DNA of 51,594 bases, taken from positions 579,715-631,308 of the forward strand of contig NZ_BCNO01000001.1 of assembly GCF_001514535.1 (NCBI RefSeq), given 5' to 3'. This document shows positions 9,141 through 19,153 of this stretch, one piece after another. The translations under genes and the position numbers were made by a program. Within the stretch, counting starts at the first letter, position 1. The number at the start of each line of letters is the position of its first letter. The stretch comes from Thermodesulfovibrio aggregans (lineage in GTDB: Bacteria > Nitrospirota > Thermodesulfovibrionia > Thermodesulfovibrionales > Thermodesulfovibrionaceae). The notes beneath the pieces are model-generated. The model had not been told where the DNA came from and ran no database searches. It was given only the letters and a program-made list of their open reading frames with translations.

Positions 9141-9457
9141 AAATTTCACCCTATTTCATGTAATTTTAAGGTGTTTGACTGTCCAGATACAATTACTATT
9201 TTATCAGAACTATTTGCAATGTTAAAATTTTTAATAGTTTTTTCTCAATTTCTTCTATAGAAAAATTTTTATTTCACATGGGAATTATCCCAAAAAAGAG
9301 AAAGGAAAGCACTCTTGTGGTTGACGCAAATTCAGTAAAAATTGCCTTTGCATTAATATCTTGAGCAACTTTGACTGCACGGAGGCAATTGATTCGATAA
9401 AAGAACTCGCAAATGACTTTATCAATTAAAGACCAAAAATTGACATTTTAGTCTCAC
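9141..9457. other. Gene-free stretch with a possible decayed reading frame
   Basis: This 317-nt stretch separates the oxidoreductase gene from the integrated element. A plus-strand frame opens with ATG at 9278 and reads 28 codons (ending KIAFALIS) to a stop at 9364. A different frame then carries on with NILSNFDCTEAIDSIKELANDF to a stop at 9429. Joined by one frameshift they would give about 50 residues. I do not recognise the product and composition alone could explain it, so this is only a weak pseudogene candidate. Nothing else is apparent. Confidence 0.25.
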
Positions 9458-9519
9458 AAACCCTTGATTTTACTTATGGAGCTGAGGGGAGTCGAACCCC
9501 CGACCTCTTGAATGCCATT
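9458..9519. repeat. Left attachment repeat (displaced tRNA-Ala 3' part)
   Basis: Matches 19061-19123 over its whole length except one missing base just outside the tRNA (acttatgg here, acttgatgg at the right). It covers the tRNA 3' half up to the middle of the anticodon loop and then diverges after GCCATT, placing crossover in or before the anticodon stem-loop. By geometry this is the displaced original 3' end and not a functional tRNA. Confidence 0.9.
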
Positions 9520-9566
9520 TATAAAAAGGCATTATCTGTTGTTATCTACTGTTATCTTTTGCTATA

Positions 9567-9580
9567 AAAATCAAGGGTTT
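9567..9580 (-). repeat. Inverted copy of the outer att-flank sequence
   Basis: The 14-mer AAACCCTTGATTTT that begins both attachment repeats (9458, 19061) occurs here in inverted orientation, about 50 bp inside the left end. It could be an integrase or excisionase arm site. Confidence 0.5.
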
Positions 9581-9625
9581 TCACCTGTCTTATTTTCTGA
9601 CATTACCCCTTGTTAGTTAGTATTA

Positions 9626-9650
9626 AGTGACACAGTTACTGACACAGTCA
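9626..9650 (+). repeat. Putative integrase arm site, copy 1
   Basis: Two-part direct repeat GTGACACA-N5-TGACACAGT near the left end of the element. Same spacing as the copies at 15843 and 19007; only the five middle bases and flanks vary. Confidence 0.6.
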
Positions 9651-9876
9651 AGGAATGGCAATGAATTACCAGAGCGTTTTTCTTTGCCGATAAGCAAAGT
9701 GTTTAATAAACAGACATTGCGTTTTTAGAGTTTATCTAAAAAAGCTATCAAATGGCAATAAATTGCCTTTTGTTTGTTTTTCTTAACCAATTCTTATCTA
9801 ACAACCATTCCTTTGCTTCTGTCAAAAAATAAACCCTTTTTAATAAAGACCCTATGCTTAACATAGGCTTTGACTA

Positions 9877-9940
9877 TAAAGAGGCTCAGGATTGATTTTA
9901 TGAAAAATTGGTCTCTGTAAAGGGTTGAGAATGCTTGATG
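9877..9940. repeat. Diverged non-coding repeat, copy A
   Basis: About 64 nt, roughly 70% identical by eye to 10896-10959. Shared blocks include AAAGAGGCT, ATTGATTTT and TGCTTGAT. Just upstream is a small hairpin, CCTATG-cttaa-CATAGG (9851-9867). It might be a regulatory RNA or a duplicated 3' flank; no coding potential is seen. Confidence 0.5.
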
Positions 9941-10089
9941 TCTGTTTTAGCAGAAAGTTGTTGTTCCTGTTTAACATCATCTCAAAGCAGAATACCTCTA
10001 CAATGTTTCTGGTTCACTGCTGGTTGACCACTGGTCATTCAAGGCTCAGGTATGCGATGTCTATCCCAATCTTCCCCCCATAGAAAAAA

Positions 10090-10450
10090 ACAGGGTTACA
10101 CTGTTACAAATGTCTGTTACAGTCTGTTACACTGTTACAAAATCTGGCAAAGTTATTGAGAAATAAGGGAAATTAGGTCTGTTACAAGCCTGTTACACTG
10201 TTACAGGTCTGTTACCTTGTTACCCTGTTGTTACCATATCACAAAATTCTTTAACATCAATAACTTTCACTAAGTTTGTTACCCTGTTACCTTGCTTGTT
10301 ACCCTGTTACAGGCGTTTCACTTAGCGTTTCATCCAGCGTTTCAGTTGTTTCACTCTGTTTCAGGTATTGGTAAGTTATTGAAAAATAAAGGGAAATTAA
10401 GCGTTTCATTTAGTGTTTCAGTGTTTCAGTCAGTGTTACCCTGTTAAGGG
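10090..10450. repeat. Iteron-like repeat region, putative replication origin
   Basis: From 10095 to about 10310 GTTAC occurs some 15 times, often as CTGTTACA or TGTTACCCTGTTAC; from 10315 to about 10430 GTTTCA occurs about nine times. Two nearly identical AT-rich 25-mers (AGTTATTGAGAAATAAGGG... at about 10151 and AGTTATTGAAAAATAAAGGG... at about 10374) sit within or between the arrays, like melting elements. No reading frame of note is present. Iteron arrays beside AT-rich DNA, in an element that encodes its own primase-helicase, are typical of plasmid-style origins. The rest of 9520-10958 is gene-free, with GTTAAC/AACCTG-rich DNA at 10577-10755. Confidence 0.6.
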
Positions 10451-10895
10451 AAAGACAGATAGCAAGCTCTATCTCTTTTTCTTACTAACTTGATGGATAT
10501 TTGAAAAAAAGGGAAAAGATAAATAAAAGTGCTGGCTGTTAGATTATGCTTTGCTCATCTTACATGAGCGTTGATATAGTTAACCTGCAAGATTATAAGC
10601 AATACCTGTGGTTAATAGCTAATTCTCTTAACCTGCCTTTTGTTAACAGGCTCTTCTCACTAATTAATTTACTCTTTTAACTTACTCTTCAGGATGCTCT
10701 CACTTTATTGATTGTTAGTAGTTAACCTGTCTGTTAACAGGTAACTGTTCATTTACAGATACAACTAAAAAATCAGATTTTCTCAACTTGTAGTAATTGC
10801 CATTACCAGACAATCACTTTCAATGTTACCTGTTGTTTTTAATCAATTCTGAGACATTTTTTTACCAGAGCCTATACTTTTATACCCCCACTTTA

Positions 10896-10959
10896 AAAAG
10901 AGGCTTAGAATTGATTTTCAGGAAAACAACTTCTCGGAAAGTGTTGATAGTGCTTGATT
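10896..10959. repeat. Diverged non-coding repeat, copy B
   Basis: Second copy of the 9877-9940 repeat, just downstream of the minus-strand gene that ends at 10959. Its CTTAGAATTGATT (10904-10916) pairs with AATCAATTCTGAG at 10841-10853, giving a 13-bp stem with one G-U pair around a 50-nt loop. Confidence 0.5.
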
Positions 10960-11813
10960 TAGTTTTTTGCTTTTTTTCTTTTTAAGGGAGTTATTCTAAA
11001 AAGAACTGGATACTTCTGCTTTAGTTCTATCCATTCTGTTCTATCCTCAGGGTATATTCCTAATCTCTGAAGTCTTCTCTGTATGGTTGCTTTGTGCATT
11101 CTACACTCAGAACAGAATAAAGCCCACTTTCCTTTTTTTGGAACAAAGTATCTACCGCATACTATACATTCAACACCATAAGCAATGTCCTCTTCCTGTT
11201 TACTCTCAACATACTCTATACAGGCATCTACAAAAGCATTTATTGAGATGAGATTACCCTCTTCATCAATAGCGTTCCTCTGATATAAAAAGTTGCGGAT
11301 GTTTAAAAAGAGAGATTGCAAGACAGGGTTGTCTGGTAAAGAGAGAGAGGATTTAAGAGATTTAAACTTTTTTCTGGCTTTATCAATCATCTCAACCAAT
11401 CCTTTAAAGCTAACTGTCTTTTGTCTTCTAAAAAGGTCAAGAAAGGGTTCTTTTAAGAGGTTAATAAGACCTTCAAAAGATACAAAGGGTGGTTCCTTGC
11501 CTTCTCTATCTGCCTGTTTAAAGTGTTCCTCATAGTGTGAAATAACAGGAGCATATTCTTTATTCCTGTTTACATAACTGAGACCACACAAAACATAACC
11601 AAAGAACCGAACATACTCAGCTATCTCTTTAACATTCCAGAGACAATATCCATCTGTTGTTTTGTGAAGCAGACAGCATCTTTTATCCCATTGAAGCTCA
11701 GAACAAATTCTATCCTGAAGCTTTATTAACGTATCCCTGTCTGCAAAACTACCCTTTACTAAAACGACTCCCTCAGCAGCATACCAAACTACTTTTAAAA
11801 GCTCTTTTTTCAT
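10959..11813 (-). CDS. Uncharacterised protein with a C-terminal zinc-finger-like motif
   Basis: It has 284 residues; I do not recognise the family. The N-terminal two thirds are mixed helical with no membrane segment. Near residues 213-235 is a four-cysteine cluster, CIVCGRYF...LFCSEC, which looks like a treble-clef or ribbon zinc site, followed by a basic helical stretch HKATIQRRLQRLGIYP; together they suggest nucleic-acid binding. Good Shine-Dalgarno (AGAGGTG) before ATG 11813. It is transcribed divergently from the AbrB/replication gene block, with three direct repeats in the shared upstream region, so it could be the regulator or copy-control protein of the element. That role is inference. 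Confidence 0.7.
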   Translation of the reverse strand: MKKELLKVVWYAAEGVVLVKGSFADRDTLIKLQDRICSELQWDKRCCLLHKTTDGYCLWNVKEIAEYVRFFGYVLCGLSYVNRNKEYAPVISHYEEHFKQADREGKEPPFVSFEGLINLLKEPFLDLFRRQKTVSFKGLVEMIDKARKKFKSLKSSLSLPDNPVLQSLFLNIRNFLYQRNAIDEEGNLISINAFVDACIEYVESKQEEDIAYGVECIVCGRYFVPKKGKWALFCSECRMHKATIQRRLQRLGIYPEDRTEWIELKQKYPVLFRITPLKRKKAKN

Positions 11814-11834: not shown

Positions 11835-11902
11835 GTTCATTCAATAAAGCATTGATTGTATTAGAAAAAAGTTCGTTCATTCAATTTTTCTGTTCATCCA
11901 AT
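11835..11902. promoter_or_regulatory. Triple direct repeat between divergent genes (operator candidate)
   Basis: Three copies of GTTCATTCAAT (the third is GTTCATCCAAT) at 11835, 11875 and 11892, spaced 40 and 17 nt, between the zinc-motif gene and the AbrB-like gene. Likely binding sites for an element-encoded regulator. Confidence 0.5.
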
Positions 11903-12015: not shown

Positions 12016-12219
12016 ATGAAAAACATCCCTTTCAAAGGAACTCAAAAGGTTACGAGAATAGGCAATGGATACTACTTTTTAATTCCAGCTCTATGGATAA
12101 GGTTAAACGGACTTTGGAGTGCTAAATCTCCAGTTGTTGAAATGGACATAACGGAAAAAAGGATTGTGATTAAGCCAATTAAAAAGACAAGAGAGCCTCA
12201 GAACGAGGCTCATGAGTAA
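12016..12219 (+). CDS. AbrB/SpoVT-type DNA-binding protein
   Basis: It has 67 residues with the swapped-hairpin AbrB pattern: TQKVTRIGNGYYFLIPALWIRL at the start and a second strand pair EMDITEKRIVIKPI. Such proteins are transition-state regulators, antitoxins or plasmid regulators. No toxin-like partner lies next to it, so a regulator of the replication block is more likely than an antitoxin. Strong Shine-Dalgarno (AAAGGAGGTGAG). It is followed 23 nt later by the replication gene and is probably cotranscribed with it. Confidence 0.78.
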   Translation: MKNIPFKGTQKVTRIGNGYYFLIPALWIRLNGLWSAKSPVVEMDITEKRIVIKPIKKTREPQNEAHE

Positions 12220-12242: not shown

Positions 12243-14717
12243 ATGCTTGCTAACATTTTAACACTTCCAAAATGTAAAATGCAAAGTGTAGCTCATTGTT
12301 ATCTGAGAGGTGGCTACTCCATAGTTCCTCTAAAACCAGATTCAAAGGAACCTGCCGTAAAGTGGAAAGATTACACGGAAAGTCGCATGATTGAGGGGTT
12401 AGTCCCCAAATTTTTCACAGATACCTCCAACATCGCTATAGTAACAGGTAGGATAAGCAACCTCATCGTCATTGATGTAGATGATGTTGAAAAGTTCTCA
12501 AAAATTTATGACTTTGAAAGATTGATGGAAGAGGCAAAAACAGTGGTTAAGTCGCCGAATGGCTGGCACTTCTGGTTCTCATATAATCCAGAATTTAGGT
12601 CAAAACAATTCCAAAAATTTGGTTTTGACATAAAGAGTGATGGATGCCTAATCACCGTTTCACCGTCAAAAGTTGATGGTAAAGTTTACAGCTTTATTAA
12701 ATCCGAAGGGCTTAATGAAATGCCACAAGAACTGAAAGAAAAAATCTTGAAACTTCAAAACCCAAAACCTGTTAGTAAAGATGAGTTGATGCTTCAAGAA
12801 GTTCTGAGCAGGGTTAGGGTTGACAAACAACTTCCTGATGGTGTCTATCGTTGTTATTGTCCAGCGCACGACGACCACGAACCAAGCCTTGATGTGGGGT
12901 TGAAAGACGGCAGGCTTTTCATTCGTTGTTGGGCGGGATGCACAAAGGAAGAGGTATTACAAGCAATTGGTTTGGAAAAGGGAGCAGAGAGGGATAGCAC
13001 ATCCCAGAAACTACTCAAGATTGCTGAAGGTTACGAATATTGGCGAAACAAAAACCAAGAGGAGTTTGTAACAGTTACTGTTGGCGGTGAAATTAGGAAT
13101 TTAAGAGTTAATTCAACCGAATTTAAAAAATTGTTGCTATTTGAATTCTGTCAGCGTTATGGCAAAGCCGCTCATACACAGGCACTCTATGAAGTGATTA
13201 CTGCACTTGCAGGCAAGGCACTTGTAGAGGGGAAAGAGTATCAGACATTTGTTAGAGTAGGCAAAATAGATGATTTAATAGAGCTTGACCTCTGCAATGG
13301 CAAAGTTGTTCAGATAACAAAAGAGAAAATTAAAATTGTTACTACGCCTTTTTTGAAATTTGAAAGAACGACAAGTTCATTACCTCTTCCTGACCCTGAT
13401 TTGAATGTTGAAAAAGAAGAATGGGAACTTTTAGCACAGATTATTAATACGAGTAGAAACGACTTAATCCTCATGCTTGCATGGCTTCTGGGCTGCTTCA
13501 ACATTGACGGGGAATTTCCAATAATGAATATCACTGGCGAGCGTGAAGGAATTGGTAAGACCACTGCTACTGCTTTTCTAAAGTCCATAGTTGACCCATC
13601 AGTGGTGAACATCAAGCCGCTACCGAAGACTGAGGACGATTTCGTTGTGGTTTGTCTACACAACCACATTGTTGCATTCGATAACCTCAGCCACATAACA
13701 GATACCATGAGTGATGCTTTATGTAGGATATCCACAGGCTCAGCATTAGCAAAAAGGAAGTTATTTACTGATACAGAAGCGGTCCAGTATTTTGTTAAAA
13801 AGCCTGTAATCTTGAATGGAATAGATTTGTTTGCAGAAAGGAGAGACTTAAGAAGGCGTTGCATACATGTTGAGCTTGAGAGGATAGACAATCCCAAACC
13901 TATTGAATGGTTGAGAAAACAATTTCAAGCCATACATCCAAAGATATTGGGCTGGCTTGTGAGGGCTGTGCAACTGGCTTTAAGAGAAAAGATAGATGAA
14001 TCGTTGAATCTTACTGATTTGGCCTCATTCGTTAGCTTCGTATGTAAAACGGAAAAGCTTTTCCCAGTTAGTGGACAGGAATTCATTGACCTGTTTAAGA
14101 CTAATAGACTAAGGGTGAGTGTATCCACAATCTCAGAGAACCCACTTGTTACCTTTCTTAATGAACTGTTAAGGGATAAAGAAAAATGGTCTGGGTCAGT
14201 GTCAGAGCTGTATGACCTGTTTTACCAGAAGTATGCTCCCACTTCCTTTAAAAACCAAATTCCAAAGGATGTAAAGAGCTTTAGCAAGAAGATAAGGAGG
14301 CTCCTTACTGACCTTGAGAATATAGGAGTTGAGATTTCATTTTCCAGAGACCAAAAGGTTAGAACTATACACATTAAAAAGAGTAGGGATTTTAATGTCA
14401 CAGATGTCATCTTGTCATTTTCCCAAGAAAATCAAGCACTTACGGGTGACAAGAAAGGTGACAACAAAAATTTTGATGTCATCTTAATGTCACCCGATGA
14501 CAAGAAACCTGATAGTGGTGACAACAAAAATCTTTTCTTGTCATCCCGTAACCCATTGAAAAATAAGGAAAATGACGATAATGACGATAATGACGTTAAT
14601 TTTCCAACTTTTTTTAAAAAGGATATTGAAAAAGAAATGAATAAATGGAGCGAGATAGACTGGAGCGAGATAGACCTTGACGACATAGAAGTTTTAGAGG
14701 AGGAAGAGAAAAAATGA
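12243..14717 (+). CDS. Prim-pol / zinc / helicase replication protein
   Basis: It has 824 residues with the layout of plasmid, phage and satellite replication initiators. The prim-pol domain (about 12-165) shows GGYSIVPLKPDSKEPAVKW, metal-binding VIDVDD (about 79-84) and SPNGWHFWF. A CHC2-type zinc motif follows (about 203-241: CYCPAHDDHEPSL...FIRCWAGC). An ATPase/helicase domain has a P-loop-like GEREGIGKTT (about 431-440) and a Walker-B-like VAFDN (about 475). The tail (about 715-824) is low-complexity and very acidic, with repeated GDNKN and NDDND units. Predicted to prime and unwind DNA for replication of the element. Shine-Dalgarno AAGGAGG; its stop overlaps the next ATG by 4 nt. Confidence 0.85.
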   Translation: MLANILTLPKCKMQSVAHCYLRGGYSIVPLKPDSKEPAVKWKDYTESRMIEGLVPKFFTDTSNIAIVTGRISNLIVIDVDDVEKFSKIYDFERLMEEAKTVVKSPNGWHFWFSYNPEFRSKQFQKFGFDIKSDGCLITVSPSKVDGKVYSFIKSEGLNEMPQELKEKILKLQNPKPVSKDELMLQEVLSRVRVDKQLPDGVYRCYCPAHDDHEPSLDVGLKDGRLFIRCWAGCTKEEVLQAIGLEKGAERDSTSQKLLKIAEGYEYWRNKNQEEFVTVTVGGEIRNLRVNSTEFKKLLLFEFCQRYGKAAHTQALYEVITALAGKALVEGKEYQTFVRVGKIDDLIELDLCNGKVVQITKEKIKIVTTPFLKFERTTSSLPLPDPDLNVEKEEWELLAQIINTSRNDLILMLAWLLGCFNIDGEFPIMNITGEREGIGKTTATAFLKSIVDPSVVNIKPLPKTEDDFVVVCLHNHIVAFDNLSHITDTMSDALCRISTGSALAKRKLFTDTEAVQYFVKKPVILNGIDLFAERRDLRRRCIHVELERIDNPKPIEWLRKQFQAIHPKILGWLVRAVQLALREKIDESLNLTDLASFVSFVCKTEKLFPVSGQEFIDLFKTNRLRVSVSTISENPLVTFLNELLRDKEKWSGSVSELYDLFYQKYAPTSFKNQIPKDVKSFSKKIRRLLTDLENIGVEISFSRDQKVRTIHIKKSRDFNVTDVILSFSQENQALTGDKKGDNKNFDVILMSPDDKKPDSGDNKNLFLSSRNPLKNKENDDNDDNDVNFPTFFKKDIEKEMNKWSEIDWSEIDLDDIEVLEEEEKK

Positions 14718-15700: not shown

Positions 15701-15842
15701 AGTTGAACTTAAGAAAAGAGCAACAAGTAAACTTTAGTGAACCATGACAAAAAAGCAACATTTTTCGTGAGTGTGTTTTATAAACCTGTGTTTTCAATCT
15801 GTTTCACTTTGTAGCTTAACTGGGTCTTTCTGTTAAAAAGTT

Positions 15843-15867
15843 AGTGACACACTTACTGACACAGTTT
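15843..15867 (+). repeat. Putative integrase arm site, copy 2 (internal)
   Basis: GTGACACA-cttac-TGACACAGT, same layout as the copies near both ends of the element. It sits in the intergenic space before the cargo genes. Confidence 0.5.
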
Positions 15868-15965
15868 ACTTTTTTTGTTTATCTATCAATAACTTACAAC
15901 CCTGTTTCAAGATATGCTATCAAGAGGTCATCTTGACAATATGAATGTTTATCTAATTATTTCTA

Positions 15966-17777: not shown

Positions 17778-17969
17778 ATGGACTGGAACAAAGAAGAGAT
17801 AAAATGGTTCAGGCAATTGTTAGGACTAACTCAAGAACAGATGGCTAAGACCTTAGGAGTAACACAGAGTTATATATCTCACCTTGAGAGAGGTAAAAAA
17901 ATACCAAATGTTTTAAAAAGGCTTCTTGACTGTCTCTATGAAAAATACAGAAAGGAGGGAAAGTTATGA
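17778..17969 (+). CDS. XRE-family repressor-like regulator
   Basis: It has 63 residues, almost only a helix-turn-helix domain: FRQLLGLTQEQMAKTLGVTQ, SYISHLERGKKIPNVL. The start at ATG 17778 is chosen because an upstream in-frame ATG (17751) lies inside the promoter. It overlaps the integrase start by 4 nt (ATGA), so the two are one unit. Probably represses its own promoter through the inverted repeat between -35 and -10, thereby controlling integrase level like a lysogeny switch; that is inference from the layout. Confidence 0.85.
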   Translation: MDWNKEEIKWFRQLLGLTQEQMAKTLGVTQSYISHLERGKKIPNVLKRLLDCLYEKYRKEGKL

Positions 17970-19042
17970 AAACAAGAGGAGTGTTTAAACGGGGTGGTGT
18001 TTACTGGATAAGGTATGCTGACCCTACAGGTAAGATAGTTAGAGAAAGTGCAAGAACCAGAAACATCAACGAGGCTTTAAAACTGCTTGCAAAGAGAAAA
18101 GCAGAAATAGCAGAGGGTAAGTTTCCAGAGAAGCTTGTTATCAAAAACCATACTTTCTCTGAGCTATGCGATAGATATTCAGAATGGGCTTGTATTCAGA
18201 AATGCTTTAACAGAAGCAAGCTTTATATTATCAAAGAACTCAAAGAAAGATTTGGCAGTCTTATTCTGAGAAGATTTACCACACAGCTTGTTGAACAGTT
18301 TCAGGTTGACTTGATTAAGCAGGGGCTTAAACCTGCTACCATTAACAGAAAGCTTGCCTGTCTTAAGCATATGTTCACCAAAGCTCAGCAGTGGGATATG
18401 GTAGAGGAAGAAGTTTTAAAGAGAATCAGAAAGGTTAAGTTTCTTAAAGAAAACAACAGAAGACTTAGATACCTTTCAGTAGAAGAGATTCAGAGATTGC
18501 TTTCCTGTTGTGACAGACATTTATATCCGATTGTCTTTACTGCTTTGAATACAGGAATGCGTAAAGATGAGATACTGTCTTTAAGATGGAGCAATGTTGA
18601 CCTTAAGAACGGATACATCCACATTGAGAAAACAAAAAACTCAGAAAGAAGAGACATTCCAATGAACGATGCTTTACTGTCTTTGTTCAGAAAGCTTTTT
18701 ACAGAAAGAAAGATTGATGTTGATTATGTTTTTGTGAATCCTCTAACAAATACAAGATACTATGATGTAAAAAGAAGCTTTAATCATGCTTTAAGAAAGG
18801 CTGACATTAAAGACTTCCACTTCCACGACTTAAGACACACCTTCGCAAGCCAGCTTGTTATGAACGGAGTTGACCTTACAACTGTTAAAGAACTCTTGGG
18901 GCACAAAGACATTAAGATGACCTTAAGATACTCACACCTTGCACCAGAACATAAATCCAGAGCTGTAAGCTGTCTCAGCCGCATTTTTTCAACATCAAAA
19001 AAAGTAAGTGACACAAAAACTGACACAGTCACTAATTTTTAG
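17966..19042 (+). CDS. int: Tyrosine recombinase (integrase) of the element
   Basis: It has 358 residues. N-terminal Arm-type segment (about 1-55: GVFKRGGVYWIRYADPTGKIVRES), core-binding SAM-like domain (about 60-150) and catalytic domain (about 165-340). Catalytic residues are visible: Arg in NTGMRKDEILSLRW, HxxR in HDLRHTFASQLV, His in LLGHKDI and Tyr in TLRYSHL. Directs integration into the adjacent tRNA-Ala. Its last codons (SDTKTDTVTNF) are written over a GTGACACA...TGACACAG repeat that also occurs twice elsewhere in the element. Shine-Dalgarno GGAGGG; overlaps the XRE gene by 4 nt. Confidence 0.94.
   Translation: MKTRGVFKRGGVYWIRYADPTGKIVRESARTRNINEALKLLAKRKAEIAEGKFPEKLVIKNHTFSELCDRYSEWACIQKCFNRSKLYIIKELKERFGSLILRRFTTQLVEQFQVDLIKQGLKPATINRKLACLKHMFTKAQQWDMVEEEVLKRIRKVKFLKENNRRLRYLSVEEIQRLLSCCDRHLYPIVFTALNTGMRKDEILSLRWSNVDLKNGYIHIEKTKNSERRDIPMNDALLSLFRKLFTERKIDVDYVFVNPLTNTRYYDVKRSFNHALRKADIKDFHFHDLRHTFASQLVMNGVDLTTVKELLGHKDIKMTLRYSHLAPEHKSRAVSCLSRIFSTSKKVSDTKTDTVTNF
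19007..19031 (+). repeat. Putative integrase arm site, copy 3
   Basis: GTGACACA-aaaac-TGACACAGT inside the 3' end of the integrase gene, 30 bp from the attachment repeat. Mirrors the copy near the left end. Confidence 0.6.

Positions 19043-19060: not shown

Positions 19061-19153
<93 letters not shown>

Follow-up and report, generated by a model that had tools for sequence, protein, structure and literature searches.

What is the function of a tandem array of 24 short words in the non-coding DNA near one end of a mobile element of Thermodesulfovibrio aggregans? The array lies at positions 10095–10440 of the window (the whole stretch of DNA that was analysed, 51,594 nucleotides in length), and the initial annotation had read it as an iteron-like array at an origin of the element, whose two repeat words would reflect two binding proteins or two binding modes. 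Its spacer recurs in repeat clusters that lie at or directly after two replication genes, so that the array is probably a protein-binding site that aids copying of the element; signals of this kind are known, but both the location and the form are unusual.

Layout of the word array

Every word of the array, 16 GTTAC and 8 GTTTCA, reads along the + strand, with none reversed; the two-class tandem array first described is therefore real, with its counts amended from about 15 and about nine. The words form four blocks parted by three AT-rich spacers: block 1 (10095–10138) holds five GTTACA words at spacings of 8, 13, 10 and 8 bp; block 2 (10180–10235) holds three GTTACA followed by three GTTACC words at spacings of 11, 8, 11, 8 and 11 bp; block 3 (10277–10363) contains three GTTACC words, one GTTACA, the change-over and five GTTTCA words; and block 4 (10402–10440) contains three GTTTCA words and one GTTACC. 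Fifteen GTTAC words precede the change-over at 10315 and one follows it, at 10435, and the GTTTCA words extend from 10315 to 10423. In order along the array, GTTACA occurs eight times, GTTACC six times, GTTACA once, GTTTCA eight times and GTTACC once, such that the variants switch in runs (GTTACA to GTTACC to GTTTCA). Spacings of 8 bp alternate with spacings of 9–13 bp inside the blocks, and 45–48 bp are spanned over each module. A single core base separates the two words and the variants change in runs, which favours one word family, seemingly diverged from one core via local duplication, and one binding protein rather than two; the suggestion of two binding proteins or modes is left unsupported.

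The three spacers bear the AAGTTATTGA module. Two copies on the + strand, namely module 1 (AAGTTATTGAGAAATAAGGGAAATTAG, 10150–10176) and module 2 (AAGTTATTGAAAAATAAAGGGAAATTA, 10373–10399), confirm the paired AT-rich modules noted at the outset, and a third, partial copy lies inverted between them (TCAATAACTTT, 10257–10267, − strand). The modules are moderately AT-rich, with a GC content of 21–31% compared with 35% for the window.

The array far exceeds what chance would produce. In the region 9520–10958, TGTTAC was observed 16 times, compared with a mean of 0.75 and a maximum of 5 in 300 dinucleotide shuffles, and the maximum for any 6-mer per 371-base window was 15, compared with 5 for the shuffles. 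Across the 2.0-Mb genome, GTTAC triplets occur in the array only, and GTTTCA triplets occur four times in the array and once as a loose copy elsewhere; apart from that copy, the repeats are confined to the element rather than scattered through the genome, in keeping with the initial reading. Coding does not explain the array, as had been stated, since no ORF of at least 60 aa was found in 9149–10797. A structured non-coding RNA was also considered and rejected, because an Rfam scan of the array matched no family and its predicted fold (z = −1.56) was equalled in stability by 10 of 100 shuffles. Among the checks originally proposed, that of periodicity gave weak helical phasing (R at best 0.61, near 10.7 bp; p = 0.04 with the gaps permuted and 0.22 with random gaps), and GC skew simply tracks gene direction. 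The control-region DNA was sought in 16 genomes of the genus and was present in this genome alone; no match was found in E. coli genomes.

Other repeats occur in the same region. A pair of 33-base direct repeats with 82% identity (9875–9907 and 10894–10926), approximately 1 kb apart, brackets the non-coding control region and may mark the borders of an older duplication or insertion. A repeat family, TTAACCTG / TTAACAGG, with a near-palindromic GTTAAC, occupies 10580–10840 between the array and the adjacent gene for a zinc-motif protein.

The integrative element and its initiator gene

The array belongs to a complete-looking integrative element of 9.6 kb, which is bounded by a 63-bp direct repeat (98.4%) holding the 3′ end of tRNA-Ala(GGC). 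The copy of this tRNA 3′ end at attL (9458–9519, + strand) is 98.4% identical to attR (19061–19123, + strand), which overlaps the tRNA-Ala(GGC) gene (19081–19153, − strand), and the array is located 575–920 bp from the att core. Arm-type integrase repeats of the form GTGACACA-N4/5-CTGACACAG flank the core on either side, with one more inside the element; they include one with N4 at 9627–9647 (+ strand) and further copies at 15844 and 19008. Beyond the element, a single copy was found across 16 genomes of the genus, next to an integrase remnant with 96% identity in this same genome. This remnant of a sister element at tRNA-Ala(CGC) (L042; G000:C2:96955–97386) retains the 3′ part of the integrase gene together with the arm-type repeat.

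The initiator gene (12243–14717, + strand) encodes an 824-aa protein of the Prim-Pol and helicase type (PF09250, E = 3.5e-15), in which residues 245–713 form a region common to plasmid helicase proteins; its sole matches in the PDB are 1rni/3m1m, the Prim-Pol structures of ORF904 (E = 0.006). Peptide-pattern scans for close relatives of this initiator in GTDB genome contigs and viral contigs found none. Upstream of it lies the gene for an AbrB-like protein of 67 aa (12016–12219, + strand), a candidate DNA binder on the basis of position and resemblance, with no family match. The zinc-motif protein of 284 aa, with a C-terminal CxxC...CxxC, is encoded on the − strand (10959–11813) such that the 3′ end of its gene faces the array, and it has relatives at the equivalent place in the G010 and G015 elements of the genus. 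The remaining genes include those for an excisionase-like HTH_17 protein of 83 aa (TIGR01764; 15252–15503, + strand), a tyrosine integrase (17966–19042, + strand), an HTH_3 regulator and lipoprotein-like cargo. Three direct GTTCAT(T/C)CAAT repeats of operator-like appearance are found at 11835–11900, where the zinc-motif and AbrB-like genes have their divergent promoters. In a circularised element, the array would fall in 1.4 kb of non-coding DNA onto which the integrase and zinc-motif genes both face with their 3′ ends, so that an operator role for the array is less likely.

Word clusters at initiator genes and a common AT-rich module

A second word cluster was identified inside the 3′ end of the initiator gene (14396–14600), comprising ten TGTCA/TGACA words in both orientations that span 150 bp, three CGTCAT words and a module core at 14555 (ATTGAAAAATAAGG). 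In the element, only the array surpasses it as a 5-mer and 6-mer cluster, and the local p for 14396–14600 is below 1/200; an earlier, coarser 6-mer test over 800 bp had given p = 0.245. This cluster is the position-equivalent of the initiator-linked clusters in related replicons.

Such clusters were found among genus loci with the same kind of integrase, which served as comparison elements, and beyond them. The G010 element contains six TGTTACA words in both orientations 3′ of its primase-helicase gene (p below 1/200), and GGTGGTAACA words come after a VapE-type Prim-Pol gene in G005. On contig 44 of G015, which carries a second Prim-Pol gene of the genus, 15 ATTCCC words are located approximately 290 bp downstream of that gene, eight in one direction and seven inverted, in blocks of direct runs with a spacing of 9–12 bp that are interrupted by a module. 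In a Chlorohelix plasmid, a dozen GTGACGC words follow the gene for an initiator-related helicase. In a scan of stop sites, significant word clusters were present just past the initiator stop in approximately half of the well-described cases (YeP5, tp310-2, GaryLarson, Javan429, Chlorohelix, G245 and G005, with G010 by a separate test), and among the VapE/D5-type genes taken from phages, which supplied YeP5, tp310-2, GaryLarson and Javan429 as well, no significant cluster was found past the stop in Mica, FoX1, Ln-9 or Javan21; members were picked regardless of any word, with the exception of G245, which was fetched with the word. The cluster words are mostly of the form TGTNRC, which TGTTAC fits. 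Scans for CTGTTAC triplets returned many loci, among which word sharing is biased by the query and was hence left out of the evidence; some of these loci (for example L106 and L177) carry unrelated tandem CTGTTACT...TGTGTCTTT arrays outside any recognised replicon.

The array and two of these clusters have the AT-rich module in common. Its core, ATTGARAAATAA(A)GG, i.e., ATTGA(A/G)AAATAA(A)GG, has five matches in 260 kb of genus loci and none in 20 shuffles, and three matches in the window compared with 0.03 expected, statistics that carry the bias of a pattern picked by looking, after the fact. Two of the five matches are in the array, one is in the cluster at the end of the element's own initiator gene, one is in the G015 cluster and one is intergenic, with no recognised initiator. 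In the G015 cluster, AAGTCATTGAAAAATAAGG is located among the direct words and has one mismatch to the array module over 17 bases; the full module pattern had no match in viral contigs. The recurrence of the module in two other Prim-Pol-linked clusters lends support to the iteron-like, origin-related part of the initial annotation, but the array is neither the sole nor the best-placed origin candidate of the element. The region 14396–14600 is the better candidate for the main origin because its position matches that of initiator-linked clusters and published origins, and the main origin more probably lies there, in the 3′ end of the initiator gene, than in the array.

A non-coding gap at 15790–15910 holds a small echo of the array, in which an arm-type repeat accompanies a pair of GTTTCA words and an inverted module (TATCAATAACTTA). 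The inverted module matches the consensus for IHF exactly, at 15884, and four exact matches to this consensus occur in the origin region of G005. The modules of the array fit the consensus only in part, so that IHF sites within them are a guess.

From the attachment site to the zinc-motif gene, no such array was found in the G010 and G015 elements. The G015 element contains the closest relative of the initiator and an integrase with 81% identity, and the G010 element contains an integrase with 66% and an HTH_17 protein with 54% identity, along with arm-type repeats. Given that both lack an equivalent, the array is not obligatory.

Other repeats of the genus loci were also recorded. Integrase-linked, iteron-like 21-bp tandem repeats with ATCAGGA are present on opposite strands in this genome (L043, 6192–6284) and in G005 (L046, 8959–9051). 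Beside related integrases, evenly repeated words (GTTTCAATTCC... and GTAAGAAAC...GGGATTGCGAC) were found in G010 near tRNA-Ala(GGC) (L053) and in G001 (L045, from 3979), respectively; both are probably CRISPR arrays. In G005 (L051, 11657–11855), a TrwC-type relaxase gene is separated from an origin-like cluster by three to four copies of GTGACACTTGGGGAAG in direct orientation, possibly another two-word arrangement.

Function of the array and comparison with known systems

The reading that we favour, and consider reasonably likely from these comparisons, is that the array serves as a cis-site for replication, as a second or accessory site rather than as the origin. A role in replication is preferred over excision or partition mainly because the module core links the array to replication clusters. 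Against this reading, the array is located approximately 1.8 kb upstream of the initiator gene, at the opposite end from the usual place of an origin; its words (TGTTAC and GTTTCA) differ from that of the initiator-end cluster (TGTCA), so that one protein need not bind both; they all point one way, unlike the usual cluster of this class with its inverted halves; and the helical phasing is weak. The unusual place, the differing words and the absence of the array from the G010 and G015 elements are the reasons for the term “second or accessory site”.

Excision and partition each account for part of the evidence. As an accessory array for excision or integration, the words would be coated by the excisionase-like HTH_17 protein, or by the integrase with a bending protein, beside attP, thereby setting the direction of recombination. 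The proximity of the array to the att core, the arm-type repeats that flank this core, and the echo, which unites GTTTCA words, an arm repeat and an inverted module with an exact IHF match, are consistent with such a role. Nevertheless, the array lies beyond the arm sites, outside the arm repeat at 9627–9647, whereas an excisionase or arm site array would be expected inside attP, between the core and these sites; the related G010 element has arm-type repeats, yet no array near its att site; and, to our knowledge, sets of excisionase sites are far smaller than 24 words. We regard this role as unlikely. Somewhat less likely is a copy-control, partition or regulatory site that is bound by the AbrB-like or the zinc-motif protein and acts by titration or in a centromere-like manner, independently of initiation. 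Tandem direct repeats of 8–12 bp are typical of such sites, and these two uncharacterised, putative DNA-binding proteins are encoded beside the array, but the element proteins scanned included none recognisable as ParA, ParM or TubZ type, the two genes have a different triplet of their own at their divergent promoters, and the module is common to initiator-linked clusters, not to genes of this kind.

It is less probable again that the array is a relic, an origin array left over from a replaced initiator, or a decoy that titrates the initiators of competing elements. The TGTTAC core is the origin-like word of two elements of the genus (TGTTACA in G010 and TGTTACCACC in G005), and the element's own initiator-end cluster uses TGTCA instead; against this, the bases flanking the words are unlike those in G010 and G005, the array is intact, without traces of decay, and this genome has no known element with an initiator of that kind. 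AT-rich non-coding DNA often holds short repeats, but low-complexity or chance sequence without function is scarcely credible for 16 words where 300 shuffles gave at most five, for GTTAC triplets that the genome has nowhere else, and for a spacer module that is also present in two other clusters.

On the replication reading, which remains the preferred one, the observed array, element, second cluster, common module and 3′-end word clusters of related initiator genes may be joined as follows. The integrase and excisionase would first release the element as a circle; the Prim-Pol/helicase initiator, either by itself or together with an accessory protein of the element, would then load as oligomers on the tandem TGTT(A/T)C words; and the AT-rich modules between the blocks would serve as bend or melting sites. 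The main origin would lie in the 3′ end of the initiator gene, and the array on the attL side would act as a second, accessory or copy-control site, or as an alternative origin; here, we infer both the protein that binds the array and the cluster that fires. A speculative extension, to which we give little weight, is a bipartite replicon whose single Prim-Pol initiator, or this initiator and a second element protein, would use two remote clusters that have different words and share the AT module, namely an origin inside the gene and the array of 24 direct words in two variants on the attP side; in its stronger form, the attP-side array would be a decoy titrating rival initiators of TGTTAC origins. 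The origins of small integrative elements beyond well-studied hosts are mostly unmapped. The common AT module, together with clusters at the 3′ ends of Prim-Pol, VapE and D5-type genes, offers a simple rule for finding them, and the two-cluster organisation becomes directly testable.

With an integrase, an excisionase-like protein and a fused primase-helicase, the element resembles PICIs, SaPIs and SCCmec, which use Rep/Cch2 initiator helicases, and it shares with whole PICIs the int gene, an AlpA/Xis-like regulator, pri-rep and a unique att site. The origins of SaPIs, PICIs and SCCmec are located directly 3′ of the helicase gene and are made of short iterons, with AT-rich DNA between the iteron sets in PICIs (PMC7581432, PMC6092414). 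The array likewise consists of sets of short iterons flanking AT-rich DNA; it differs in that it is not immediately 3′ of the initiator gene and lies at the other end of the element, with one orientation, two word variants and three AT modules. The cluster at 14396–14600 is nearly at the right place, but inside the gene rather than after it. In Gram-negative PICIs, all genes run in one direction with int at the left end (PMC6092414), whereas here the zinc-motif gene is divergent and the integrase gene follows the replication and cargo genes. SaPI/PICI-type origins are further defined by specific binding of the C-terminal domain of the initiator, and PICIs by helper-phage induction and packaging. 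The plasmid pRN1 is similar in that its ORF904 is a Prim-Pol and helicase initiator, and its essential origin is downstream of the initiator gene (PMC4234260). Unlike the clusters described here, that origin lacks iterons and consists of a 100-bp stem-loop. Tandem direct repeats and AT-rich DNA are features that the array shares with classical iteron plasmid origins of the RepA/TrfA type. The iterons of these plasmids are about 17–22 bp, whereas the units of the array are 8–12 bp, and no RepA/TrfA-type initiator was recognised among the element proteins scanned. Phage P4, with ori, crr and the alpha protein, resembles the element in having a fused primase-helicase initiator and two separate cis clusters approximately 4 kb apart. 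In P4, ori and crr carry an identical iteron, whereas the words here are unlike between the two sites (TGTTAC/GTTTCA and TGTCA). The alpha protein has a Toprim primase, not a Prim-Pol (PMC4234260), in contrast to the PF09250 Prim-Pol of the element. In its role, the attL-side array would be comparable to crr of phage P4.
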